A stretch of DNA of 64,000 nt from Acidilutibacter cellobiosedens (GTDB lineage Bacteria > Bacillota > Clostridia > Tissierellales > Acidilutibacteraceae), in NCBI RefSeq assembly GCF_004103715.1, contig NZ_CP035282.1, forward strand, positions 62,001 to 126,000, given 5' to 3'. Below the pieces are notes generated by a model. That model had not been told where the DNA came from. It saw only the letters and a list, made by a program, of their open reading frames with translations, and did no database searches. Position numbers and translations under genes: made by a program. Positions 54,840-58,511 of the stretch are shown in pieces (position 1 is the first letter of the stretch; each line of letters opens with the position of its first letter).

Positions 54840-54849
54840 AACAGCACGA

Positions 54850-55705
54850 GGGGACGGTTCTTTTGTGTTGTTTTCACCTCTAATTTATGTTAGAATGAAT
54901 ATAAATTGGAGGTGATTTTTATGTCAAGAAAGGCAAGAGAAAAAAGCAGTACCGGAATATATCATGTGATTCTTAGAGGAATAAATGGACAGATAATATT
55001 TAAAGATAATGAAGATTATAAAAAATTAATTCAGACAATTAACGAATATAAGGAAATATCGGGATATGAAATATATGCTTTTTGTCTTATGAACAACCAC
55101 ATACATTTACTAATGAAAGAGGGAAAAGAAGATTTAGGAATAGTTTTTCGAAGGATAGGAGCTAGTTATGTATATTGGTATAATAGGAAATATAAAAGAA
55201 GAGGACATTTATTTCAAGACAGATATAAAAGTGAGCCGGTAGAAGACGATAAATATTTTTTGACGGTATTGAGATATATACATCAAAATCCGATCAAAGC
55301 AGGTATTGAGACCAATATATCAAAATATCCATGGAGCAGCTATAATGAGTATTTGGGAAAAGAAAATATTTGTGATATAAAGTTTGCATTAGATTTTTTT
55401 GCAGACGAAAAGAAAAGAGCAGTGGATTTGTTTAAAAAATTTAATAGTGAGGAAAATGATGATAAATGTTTTGAATATGAGAAAGACGGCAGGATTGATG
55501 ATATAGAAGCTGCAAAGTTAATAGAGAAAACAGCAAAAGTAGAAAATCCAAATCAAGTTCAAAATTGTGAAAAAGAAAAAAGAGATAAAATAATTAAAGA
55601 GTTAAAGAATGGTGGATTATCAATAAGGCAAATAGAAAGATTAACAGGAATTAGTTTTGCTGTAATAAGGAGGATATAGCACAGAAGAACCGTCCCCTTG
55701 TGTTG
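54850..55705 (+). mobile_element. REP-type transposase unit bounded by 13-bp inverted repeats
   Basis: GGGGACGGTTCTT (54850-54862) at the left and AAGAACCGTCCCC (55685-55697) at the right are perfect inverted repeats. Each is followed by the direct octamer TTGTGTTG. They enclose the single RAYT gene. This GGGGACGGTTC motif is widely dispersed in clostridial-type genomes. The unit moves as single-stranded DNA by family knowledge. Confidence 0.75.
54921..55679 (+). CDS. REP-associated tyrosine (Y1) transposase, RAYT
   Basis: A 252-residue transposase of the IS200/IS605-like Y1 superfamily. The N-terminal IYHVILRGINGQIIF, the HUH motif in MNNHIHLLM, the region FQDRYKSEPVEDD and the catalytic-Tyr helix near YIHQNPIKAG are visible, then an extra helix-turn-helix-like C-terminus (NGGLSIRQIERLTGISFAVI). 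GGAGGTGA precedes ATG 54921. It lies within inverted repeats as usual for RAYT/REPIN units. Confidence 0.88.
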   Translation: MSRKAREKSSTGIYHVILRGINGQIIFKDNEDYKKLIQTINEYKEISGYEIYAFCLMNNHIHLLMKEGKEDLGIVFRRIGASYVYWYNRKYKRRGHLFQDRYKSEPVEDDKYFLTVLRYIHQNPIKAGIETNISKYPWSSYNEYLGKENICDIKFALDFFADEKKRAVDLFKKFNSEENDDKCFEYEKDGRIDDIEAAKLIEKTAKVENPNQVQNCEKEKRDKIIKELKNGGLSIRQIERLTGISFAVIRRI

Positions 55706-55761
55706 TTGACAGGAAAAAAGAATTTTGATATAATATGAATGAATAATAATATTATTCATTC
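55706..55761 (+). promoter_or_regulatory. TetR gene promoter and operator
   Basis: TTGACA (55706-55711), 17-base spacer, TATAAT (55729-55734): full consensus. The dyad GAATGAATA-N7-TATTCATTC follows at 55737-55761, where a bound repressor would block transcription. TTGACA directly abuts the right end of the RAYT unit, so that insertion may have supplied or disturbed the promoter. Confidence 0.85.
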
Positions 55762-55781
55762 TGGAAAGGCGGGAAGATAAA

Positions 55782-56345
55782 TTGTTGGATAAAAAGGCAG
55801 AGATTTTTAAAGCTGGTAGAGAACTATTTTTTTTGAAGGGCTTTAAGGATGTTAATGTTTCAGCTATAACGAAACGAGCAGGCGTTGGAGTCGGAACTTT
55901 TTATAATTATTACCCATCAAAAGAGGAGCTTTTTTTCGATATTTATTTCAAGGAAAACGAAGCGGTCAAAAAGTCTATTGTGAAATCCCTTAATTTAAAT
56001 GATGACCCAATCGCATTGGTTACAAAATTCTTATCGCTAAGTACAGACACTATAAGTAAAAATCGAATTTTACAGGAATGGTATAACAAAGATATTTTTG
56101 GTGATTTAGAGCAACGATATCATGATAAATACGGTTGTTTTTTGTTTGATTCTTACATGGATTTGTTAAAGAAATGGAAACTGGAAAATAAAATAAGAAA
56201 TGATATCGACGACGGACTCCTTTTTGCACTTATGAAATCCGTAGTCTACCTTGATACGCACAAAGAGGGAATAGGGATTCAATATTTCCCACAAGTTATT
56301 CAGGTGCTTGTAGAATTCATTATGAAGGGTTTAACGGATTGCTAA
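55782..56345 (+). CDS. TetR-family transcriptional regulator
   Basis: A 187-residue TetR regulator: N-terminal helix-turn-helix FKAGRELFFLKGFKDVNVSA, ITKRAGVGVGTFYNYYPSKE, then an alpha-helical ligand domain. It likely represses itself and the following CDP-alcohol phosphatidyltransferase gene through the GAATGAATA-N7-TATTCATTC sites. TTG 55782 is the first start after a GGCGGGAAG site. Confidence 0.9.
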   Translation: MLDKKAEIFKAGRELFFLKGFKDVNVSAITKRAGVGVGTFYNYYPSKEELFFDIYFKENEAVKKSIVKSLNLNDDPIALVTKFLSLSTDTISKNRILQEWYNKDIFGDLEQRYHDKYGCFLFDSYMDLLKKWKLENKIRNDIDDGLLFALMKSVVYLDTHKEGIGIQYFPQVIQVLVEFIMKGLTDC

Positions 56346-56361
56346 AAAGAAGAAACAATTT

Positions 56362-56414
56362 TTTTATCGCATGGTGAATGAATATTTTTTATATTCATTC
56401 ACCATGCGATAAAA
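56362..56414. promoter_or_regulatory. 24-bp perfect hairpin containing TetR-type operator
   Basis: Arms 56362-56385 and 56391-56414 are exact inverse complements around a T5 loop. Inside lies GAATGAATA (56376-56384), 7 bases, TATTCATTC (56392-56400), the same operator as before the TetR gene. Besides being an operator it could stop transcription of the TetR gene. It stands 60 bases before the next gene. Confidence 0.85.
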
Positions 56415-56473
56415 TGTACTGATATTCGATATTATTATGGTTGAAAATTATTTAGGAATGGAGGTAGTACAAA

Positions 56474-57028
56474 GTGATTAAAAATATTTTAGTAAATATA
56501 CTAACATTATTACGAATTCCGCTCTCGTTGATATTCTATAATGTGGTACAGCATGATGCCAACCCGTTTTTACCTTGCACTGTGCTATTCATATTAGTAG
56601 CGGCATCGGATTATTTTGATGGAAAACTGGCGCGTAAGTATGGTGTGCAGAGCGGCATTGGCGCAATACTGGATGTAATGGCGGATTTTTTCTTTATTAT
56701 AATGGCCAGCTTATCGCTGTCTTTCCGAGGTATGTTTCCTCACTGGATGCTGGGGGTCATTATATTCAAATTTTTAGAATTCTGGGTTACTTCCGTTATC
56801 TTTAACAGAGGAAGCAAAAATACATCTGTGTTTCTATTTGATCCTTTGGGAAGAATCGTGGCAGTATTATTTTATCTGCTGCCTATATTAATGTTACTGT
56901 TTACTCTTTGTTTATCTGCTGATATACACCAAATTGCTCTTGCAATAATTTATGGGGGAATAACAAGCCTTGCCCTTTTATCTTCAACTTTGAGAATTTC
57001 ATCGTTTATAAAGCTTATAAAAGGATAA
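56474..57028 (+). CDS. CDP-alcohol phosphatidyltransferase family protein
   Basis: A 184-residue membrane enzyme with the full family signature D-G-X2-A-R-X8-G-X3-D-X3-D in FDGKLARKYGVQSGIGAILD and MAD, plus about five membrane segments. The family makes phospholipids from CDP-diacylglycerol and an alcohol; the alcohol cannot be told. GGAGG precedes GTG 56474. Its expression is probably controlled by the TetR gene just upstream. Confidence 0.85.
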   Translation: MIKNILVNILTLLRIPLSLIFYNVVQHDANPFLPCTVLFILVAASDYFDGKLARKYGVQSGIGAILDVMADFFFIIMASLSLSFRGMFPHWMLGVIIFKFLEFWVTSVIFNRGSKNTSVFLFDPLGRIVAVLFYLLPILMLLFTLCLSADIHQIALAIIYGGITSLALLSSTLRISSFIKLIKG

Positions 57029-57198: not shown

Positions 57199-57555
57199 TT
57201 ATTCTTTACATTCGTCGGCATGCTTGTGTTCATGACAGGCAGAACCAGTGGATTTTAATTTACCTTGTAAATAATTATTCACGGCTGTTTCGGATTCTCC
57301 TGATGCTCCGGTGATAACCTTAATTCCTTTTTCATTGAAAATATCAATTGCACCGCCGCCCATACCGCCTGATATGATGACATTTATTCCTTTATCATAT
57401 AGGAATACCGGCAAAAATCCGGGTTTATGTCCGGGGTTTTGGATAAACTCCTTATTTTTAATTTGATTATTTTCAACTTCAAAGATTGTAAAACCTTCAC
57501 AATGACCGAAATGTTCCGTTACCATTTTACCTTCACTTGCAACTGCGATTTTCAT
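57199..57555 (-). CDS. NifX/NifB-type dinitrogenase iron-molybdenum cofactor-like protein
   Basis: A 118-residue protein: MKIAVASEGKMVTEHFGHCE, then VIISGGMGGGAIDIFNEKGI and VNNYLQGKLKSTG, all typical of the small NifX/YkdB Fe-S-binding family. A His/Cys-containing tail (CHEHKHADE) may bind metal. In clostridia such genes accompany Mrp/NBP35 ATPases, which is the case here, so Fe-S cluster handling is likely. It is likely transcribed with the Mrp gene. AAAGGAG precedes ATG 57555. Confidence 0.85.
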   Translation of the reverse strand: MKIAVASEGKMVTEHFGHCEGFTIFEVENNQIKNKEFIQNPGHKPGFLPVFLYDKGINVIISGGMGGGAIDIFNEKGIKVITGASGESETAVNNYLQGKLKSTGSACHEHKHADECKE

Positions 57556-57671
57556 AATAAATTTCTCCTTTCAAATTTTATTTGAGCTGATAATTTATTT
57601 TATTAATTAATGCTATATATTATTTTTCAGGTAATTTTGATAGAAATTGGCCCACATTGATGTTCGGATTT

Positions 57672-58511
57672 TCATACAAAACTGTGTATATCAGTATCTT
57701 TAACAAGCATGTTTTCAATTTTGTCAGCAGCTTTGTCTAAATAATCATTATTGAAACGTTCAAATTCTCCTTTATCAACAAGCTGTGCCATGAGGGGATC
57801 AACAGGTATTTCACCGAGAACGTTAAGATTTAAATTTTTTGCTGTTTCCCTTAGATTGCTTTTGCCAAATAGATATATTTTTTCTCCACAGTTTGGACAT
57901 TTGATATAGCTCATATTTTCTATAATTCCTAAAACTGGTATATTCATATGTTTTGCCATATTGTAAGCTTTTTTTACAATCATGGAGACAAGTTCCTGCG
58001 GCGAAGTCACAATGATGATACCATCCAACGGAATAGACTGAAAGACGGTCAATGGCACATCTCCTGTTCCGGGAGGCATATCGATGAACAAAAAATCCAA
58101 ATCTCCCCAAATGACATCAGTCCAAAATTGTTTAACGGTACCTGCAAGTAAAGGGCCTCTCCAAATGACAGGTGCATCTGCTTGATCAAGCAACAAATTA
58201 ATTGACATAATGCTGATGTTATTATGGGTTTTTTCCGGCAAAATTCCCATTTCATTTACTTGGGCTTTTTTATTAATGCCGAACATTTTAGGAATAGAAG
58301 GCCCGGTAATATCGGCATCCAGTATACCTGTGTTATATCCTTTTCTGTTAATCAAAATAGACAGCATGGCTGCAACAAGTGATTTTCCTACACCTCCTTT
58401 ACCGCTGACCACTCCGATTACTTTTTTGATAGAATTAAAATTATTTGTTTTTTCCAAAAAACTTTGAGGGTTTCCCTCGCATCCCTCACAAGATTCTTTT
58501 TTTTCTGACAT
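57672..58511 (-). CDS. Mrp/NBP35-family Fe-S carrier ATPase
   Basis: A 279-residue ParA-like P-loop ATPase: deviant Walker A SGKGGVGKS near residues 36-44, Walker A' DADITGPSIPKMF, Walker B FIDMPPGTGD, and the CxxC pair CPNC at the typical Mrp position. The N-terminal CEGCEG may hold a bridging cluster. It is thought to deliver Fe-S clusters. A second gene (NifX-like) follows it on the same strand after 116 bases. AGGAG-type site precedes ATG 58511. Confidence 0.9.
   Translation of the reverse strand: MSEKKESCEGCEGNPQSFLEKTNNFNSIKKVIGVVSGKGGVGKSLVAAMLSILINRKGYNTGILDADITGPSIPKMFGINKKAQVNEMGILPEKTHNNISIMSINLLLDQADAPVIWRGPLLAGTVKQFWTDVIWGDLDFLFIDMPPGTGDVPLTVFQSIPLDGIIIVTSPQELVSMIVKKAYNMAKHMNIPVLGIIENMSYIKCPNCGEKIYLFGKSNLRETAKNLNLNVLGEIPVDPLMAQLVDKGEFERFNNDYLDKAADKIENMLVKDTDIHSFV

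Follow-up and report, generated by a model that had tools for sequence, protein, structure and literature searches.

Paired operator-like palindromes around tetR genes of one clade, with exchangeable downstream genes and a T-tract at a recurrent distance from the second site

TetR-family proteins are generally understood as autoregulated repressors that have an operator at their own gene and another at a neighboring target, and they usually bind single sites as dimers. Short palindromic operators of the TGAATGA type are known for Bacillus FadR and other TetRs. Other repressors have been linked to events downstream of initiation. YtgR bound in the trpR-trpBA intergenic region of Chlamydia trachomatis is reported both to promote termination of transcription from an upstream promoter and to repress an intergenic promoter (PMC6504234), DNA-bound C.Kpn2I is reported to stall RNA polymerase transcribing its own gene (PMC6237814), and PMC4132739 cites Mfd as having a role in termination at roadblocks formed by CcpA, CodY, and LacI. 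In the open-licence literature, judged by title and among the matches listed, the operator string TGAATGAATA returned no TetR operator, TetR together with TTCATTCA returned one TetR-regulated efflux locus (PMC4070704), and a search on TetR roadblocks and operators returned a paper on TetR-dependent expression (PMC8426231). The same literature gave no title for a TGAATGA operator of FadR or TetR, no match for a TetR with a phosphatidyltransferase operator, and no title on the clade described below (TetR, ApbE, and MATE), which is no proof that this clade is undescribed.

The DNA analyzed here, referred to as the window, is a 64,000-nucleotide stretch of the Acidilutibacter cellobiosedens genome, and coordinates are given within it. 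A tetR gene on the plus strand (55782-56345, TTG start) encodes a 187-aa protein with the N-terminal TetR_N helix-turn-helix domain of the family (PF00440, 54.0 bits; cut-off 24), while the score for the NCBIfam FadR equivalog was 29.4 bits against a cut-off of 200. Its promoter, P1 (55706-55734, plus strand), reads TTGACA-17-TATAAT, a 12/12 match to the consensus. The initial annotation had placed two identical TetR-type sites on either side of this gene, and GAATGAATA-N7-TATTCATTC does occur there twice with 0 mismatches, at 55737-55761 (operator 1) and 56376-56400 (operator 2), 639 bp apart; since the 7-bp spacers differ, however, "identical" is true of the half-sites only. In a 27-bp frame (55736-55762 and 56375-56401, neither assigned to a strand), the half-sites of both are separated by 13 bp. 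The frame of operator 1 starts 1 bp past the -10 element, so that by its sequence the predicted operator is a palindrome overlapping the promoter of its own regulator. Operator 2 lies within the 128-bp interval between tetR and a co-directional gene for a 184-aa CDP-alcohol phosphatidyltransferase (PT; 56474-57028, plus strand; Pfam CDP-OH_P_transf, 70.8 bits; cut-off 22), the probable regulated gene.

A search of the window allowing up to 3 mismatches returned 2 matches where 0.10 were expected, and 2 matches were seen in none of 100 shuffles. In the whole 3.74-Mb genome, the same threshold gave 12 places (2 exact, one with 2 mismatches, and nine with 3); a reversed-pattern control gave 8, and only the exact pair thus stands out. 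These counts bear on the idea that the sites are copies of a repeat or have paired by chance, which draws on the presence in the same region of a REP-type transposase gene with its repeats. The genome, however, holds only the two exact copies beside tetR, on which ground a repeat or transposon origin was rejected, and the pair recurs at the same two positions across the TetR clade described below, plasmid members included; we give this reading practically no credence. The transposase-like gene itself (54906-55679; Y1_Tnp, 53.1 bits; NF047646, 75.3 bits against a cut-off of 80) lies near operator 1 and is bracketed by inverted 40-nt repeats (80%) in a region spanning 54840-55711. When 54840-55780 was used to query the genome, 24 matches were obtained, a count in which the query and a match of operator 1 to itself are included; many of them are repeat ends only. 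The right repeat overlaps the -35 element of the tetR promoter by 2 bp; a related locus, L061, has a like promoter and no transposase gene.

To compare this arrangement across relatives, similar TetRs were sought in 100 related genomes (which include none of the source genome's own family), in 391 genomes of the class and 398 of the phylum (some of which recur), and in a plasmid collection. The closest relative found, located via its PT, is L061 on the Clostridiales metagenome contig JAATFT010000031.1. Its TetR is 86% and its PT 70% identical to those of the window, the promoter geometry is the same, and both operators are kept, with the counterpart of operator 2 at 2943-2969. A TetR profile for the class and phylum scans was seeded with the window, L061, L090-L092, L098, and L099; the next matches in the 100-genome search, L093-L095, have no such sites and were left out. 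In both scans, profile scores formed one group at 185 bits or above, with the remainder at 120 or below. Sites were then called as the fewest mismatches to TGAATGA-Nk-TCATTCA, with k from 4 to 20, between 200 bp before and 420 bp after each gene. Thirty clade tetRs were reduced to 27 by dropping the first copies in L155 (equal to L107) and L156 (equal to L105), as well as L100, a near copy of L099. With at most 1 mismatch in 14, a site was found upstream of 25 of these 27 distinct genes, downstream of 23, and on both sides of 22. Because the six seeds besides that of the window were retained or included with their sites already known, the set of 27 is in part selected, and the 20 tetRs found by the profile alone were therefore counted separately, giving 18 upstream, 16 downstream, and 15 on both sides. 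The downstream site is missing from L103, L111, L139, and L156_2, and the upstream site from L155_2 and L156_2. Operator 1 starts 1 bp past the -10 element in 21 of 25 clade loci.

Clade members also occur on plasmids, as genes of Lactococcus piscium and Enterococcus. On the Enterococcus plasmids (L099, 3945-3984; L100, 3936-3975), the arms of operator 1 reach further outward, to 14 bp, and mirror a portion of the -10 region, another case of palindrome extension at such an operator. In L155 (G205) and L156 (G311), two clade tetRs form a tandem pair separated by about 1.6 kb; an ApbE gene, as read on L107 and L105, lies in the interval, and the second copy of tetR is without one or both operators.

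Thirty-five other TetR loci (L093-L095, L112-L130, and L142-L154) served for comparison. Under the clade rule, 2 of these have an upstream site, 1 a downstream site, and 1 a pair (L130, N4 on both sides); the corresponding numbers are 9, 2, and 1 at up to 2 mismatches and 21, 11, and 7 at up to 3. An N12-N14 pair at clade strictness was found in none of the 35, and neither was a pair with a half-site gap of 8-16 and at most 1 mismatch per half. Related shorter palindromes do occur outside the clade: L148 has an upstream N9 site, and the non-clade TetR of L130 (G179) has sites of the TGAATGA-N4-TCATTCA type on both sides, again with equal spacing. In a tree, the 27 clade TetRs split from 12 of the 35 outsiders at 100/98 support.

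Within the clade, the half-sites are 12, 13, or 14 bp apart, and this spacing is equal at both sites in 21 of 22 paired loci (L109 included; L155_2 left out, as it has no upstream site). Permutation gave a mean of 9.0 and a maximum of 19, with 21 reached in 0 of 200,000 trials; this test takes no account of relatedness, and by parsimony the spacing changed at least 4 times on the tree. The single exception, L098, has 13 bp upstream and 14 bp downstream, where its top-ranked downstream site is an equally exact N10. The plain reading of equal spacing within loci is that one protein shapes both sites.

We next considered the cargo, defined as the gene behind operator 2 or, where operator 2 is absent, behind tetR. 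The cargo is a MATE transporter in 5 loci (L090, L102, L110, L135, and L141), ApbE in 8 (L103-L109 and L111, with only the C-terminal part of the frame in L104), and first an FMN_bind protein in 3 (L138-L140). Single loci carry an FMN reductase (L136), a cytochrome b5-like protein (L134), and a radical SAM protein (L137). L098 has an annotated hypothetical protein and a ferredoxin reductase, without a Pfam match; L099 has a hypothetical protein with an NrdI-like flavodoxin; the cargo of L091 is a protein without a Pfam match; and no long frame follows closely in L092. Only the window and L061 carry a phosphatidyltransferase. The theme of the cargo is thus efflux and flavin or redox proteins. 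On the tree, the fewest cargo changes number 12, with labels set by us and ApbE and FMN_bind operons counted as different; as FMN_bind lies next to ApbE in two tested ApbE loci (L103 and L106), this figure is on the high side. The association of TetR with PT had been proposed from the window alone; the clade shows that the operator pair belongs to repressors that usually carry efflux or flavin genes, a context the initial annotation missed.

Taken together, the comparison supports the earlier proposal that the two sites are TetR operators and that the next gene is their target, with L061 keeping both sites, and we consider it highly probable from these sequence data that TetR binds both sites and controls the PT gene. 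Because the same two-site layout stands before quite different genes in related repressors, the predicted circuit looks real and portable. In the mechanism that we infer, TetR would bind both palindromes, blocking initiation at its own strong promoter from operator 1 (autorepression) and blocking expression of the PT gene from operator 2, and a small-molecule ligand would release it. Two like sites 639 bp apart with equal spacing might instead point to a DNA loop in which TetR bridges operators 1 and 2 to repress P1, operator 2 being auxiliary only. The distance between the sites varies, however (639 bp in the window and 987 bp in L061), a TetR protein typically binds a single site as a dimer, and operator 2 mostly lies just before the next gene (at most 41 nt in 15 of 18), a placement also seen in L061, L107, and L136, where it is 139-377 bp from the tetR stop. 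We therefore regard looping as unlikely.

The PT gene probably regulated in this way shows features of an accessory enzyme. CDP-alcohol phosphatidyltransferases carry the motif D-x2-DG-x2-AR-x8-G-x3-D-x3-D, and the PT translation contains, by reading, DYFDGKLARKYGVQSGIGAILDVMAD, consistent with its assignment to the family. Against the PgsA model TIGR00560, it scores 58.8 bits where the cut-off is 109.1, while another gene of the same genome scores 170.8 and is a clear PgsA. The genome has three CDP-alcohol phosphatidyltransferase genes, of which that of the window is the third and weakest; with two others present, one of them a clear PgsA, the window PT is taken to be accessory. Four distant homologues were found in 390 other genomes of the class, and none of the four has the operator beside it. 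Two of these homologues, 34-39% identical (L158, 935-2121, and L159, 1399-2618), lie directly behind a flavodoxin-like frame whose N-terminus is hydrophobic (24.4 and 23.6 bits; Pfam cut-off 27); the other two lack such a frame. These neighbors hint that this enzyme group may be linked to redox proteins. Convergent behind PT, on the minus strand (57199-58511), lie genes for a protein with a dinitrogenase iron-molybdenum cofactor domain and an Mrp-type ATPase, which match both ends of MrpORP, neither above its cut-off.

A further element of the locus, overlooked by the initial annotation, is a T7 tract (56359-56365, plus strand) that ends 9 bp before operator 2. Of 22 loci, 15, among them the window, have a T5-T9 run ending at exactly this distance (L109 is out of this count and of the promoter count below, and L155_2 is in); 7 loci have no such exact gap, 3 of them having the run at 11 or 12 bp. 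In mononucleotide shuffles of the 40 bp upstream, the maximum at any one distance in 5,000 trials was 3 of 22, and at operator 1 a tract was found at 9 bp in 0 of 24 loci, with no distance above 1 of 24. The tract holds its position in L107, L136, and L061, where 139, 221, and 377 bp separate operator 2 from the tetR stop, and is thus tied to the operator, not to the end of tetR. The possibility that it is the U-tract of a tetR terminator was found unsupported in general, as a preceding stretch that folds at z < -1.5 is present in only 4 of the 19 loci where at least five T in a row occur near operator 2; the window is not among these 4, and the 45 nt before its tract fold at -0.8 kcal/mol.

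We then asked whether operator 2 coincides with a promoter. At operator 1, mean -35 and -10 matches over 24 loci peak at -30 and -7 from the operator, at 4.58 and 4.83 of 6. Around operator 2, the best mean matches over 22 loci are 3.05 and 3.27, and position by position no consistent promoter emerges across these loci; in a second set of 22 loci (L109 in, L155_2 out), 19 have some match of at least 8/12 nearby, at no fixed place. An in-frame start codon follows operator 2 within 41 nt in 15 of 18 checked cargo frames (the 23 loci with operator 2 minus L090, L091, L092, L104, and L155_2), which, in those loci, allows hardly any space for a promoter downstream of operator 2. Given that no conserved promoter is found there and that the T-tract lies at 9 bp, we favor, with slightly less than even confidence, a reading in which operator 2 gates elongation: tetR and PT would both be read from P1, and bound TetR would stall RNA polymerase near the T-tract. 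These data suggest, without proof, that operator 2 acts on elongation.

The alternative is that PT has a weak promoter of its own, either at operator 2, with a -35 element in or beside the T-tract and a -10 element in the spacer, or just behind it, which TetR would occlude. At a spacing of 16-17 bp, a tract ending 9 bp before the operator does place a -10 element inside it, and by eye TTGTCA, TTGTCT, or TTTACC stands beside the tract in some loci and TATAAT in the operator 2 spacer of L104 and L107. The mean -10 match inside operator 2 is nevertheless no higher than that at the same offset in operator 1 (3.27 vs 3.71), and the best mean -35 match falls short of that at operator 1 (3.05 vs 4.58). 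In the window, a 9/12 match, TTTATA-16-TAAAAT (56388-56415), and the 72 nt between operator 2 and the start codon leave room for a separate promoter, as do the distances in L140 (109 nt) and L134 (232 nt), the other exceptions to the 41-nt limit, but this match is not at a conserved place. Four loci (L105, L106, L108, and L109) do have a terminator-like hairpin ahead of the tract (z -1.8 to -2.3), and this speaks in favor of a separate promoter. On balance, a promoter belonging to PT is the main rival of the elongation gate, and we rank it somewhat below the latter.

If operator 2 does gate elongation, the clade may employ a two-stage switch, in which operator 1 would stop initiation and the T-tract with operator 2 would stop the elongating polymerase; this generalization is tentative. 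Were it true, cargo would be gated more tightly than the regulator, and the T-tract with its operator would constitute a portable gate standing before unrelated efflux, flavin-transfer, flavin-binding, and lipid-enzyme genes.

Operator 2 had also been described as lying inside a perfect 24-bp hairpin and as perhaps doubling as an RNA structure. The hairpin is present as claimed: the extended palindrome spans 56362-56414 (no strand assigned), with arms at 56362-56385 and 56391-56414 that are 100% complementary and separated by a 5-nt loop. The dual role fared less well. The palindrome reaches 13 bp outward from the 27-bp operator, so that it covers the gap of 9 bp as well as four T residues of the T-tract, and these outer 13 bp are not conserved; they are absent in L061, the extension in L134 is 7 bp with other letters, and it is 0-2 bp in the other 20 of the 22 loci compared (L109 in, L155_2 out). 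In favor of an element acting chiefly as RNA (a processing site, stabilizer, or attenuator), with its operator likeness secondary, the RNA of 56355-56425 folds at -35 kcal/mol (z -11.6), and a perfect 13-bp extension can hardly be due to chance. Speaking against the repeat origin considered above, a search of exact TTTTATCG...CGATAAAA ends spaced by 16-46 bases finds only the operator 2 hairpin, and its control finds 1. Yet the conserved part is the operator core, the extension is shared by none of the 21 other loci, neither strand has a T run after the hairpin (the T-tract precedes it), and no Rfam family scores above its cut-off on the hairpin, where 8 sub-threshold hits fall (6 microRNA models, one snoRNA, and one plasmid antisense RNA). 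The hairpin was also considered as an intrinsic terminator, which would have a GC-bearing stem followed by a T run, and this was rejected, as no terminator-like site was found. We consider a primarily RNA-based function improbable; with outer arms that are not conserved, a dual role is unsupported, and the hairpin looks like the local perfection of a near-palindrome rather than a conserved RNA element.

The predictions made here comprise a target, an operator sequence, and a spacing rule for a clade of chromosomal and plasmid TetRs located ahead of efflux and flavin-protein genes; for an accessory phospholipid-type enzyme, they name a probable regulator. Should the T-tract rule reflect an elongation gate, a single repressor would have a compact, testable means of regulating its cargo differently from its own gene. 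Among described systems, that of YtgR resembles this locus in that the repressor's site separates a regulator gene from the genes downstream of it, but YtgR is iron-dependent and encoded elsewhere in a permease fusion, and the system has neither a TetR nor paired like operators (PMC6504234). C.Kpn2I shares with the proposed gate a bound regulator that roadblocks polymerase on its own gene, although its site is inside the coding region, it is a restriction-modification controller, and the text available for it mentions no T-tract (PMC6237814).

Closer in family are Bacillus FadR and the other TGAATGA-type TetRs, of which L130 is one. The half-sites TGAATGA...TCATTCA are common to both, but they lie 12-14 bp apart here and 4 bp apart in L130, whose profile score of 62.4 bits is far below the clade. 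Measured against the general TetR model, the locus is alike in its TetR_N helix-turn-helix domain, its predicted palindromic operator, which covers the start region of the tetR promoter, and its adjacent target gene. It differs in that a second operator lies between a co-directional tetR and target with no conserved promoter, in that a T-tract often stands at a fixed distance, and in that cargo is exchanged while the operator pair is kept. It is these features, namely paired operators varying in lockstep, exchangeable cargo, and a T-tract at 9 bp, that are worth a specialist's time.
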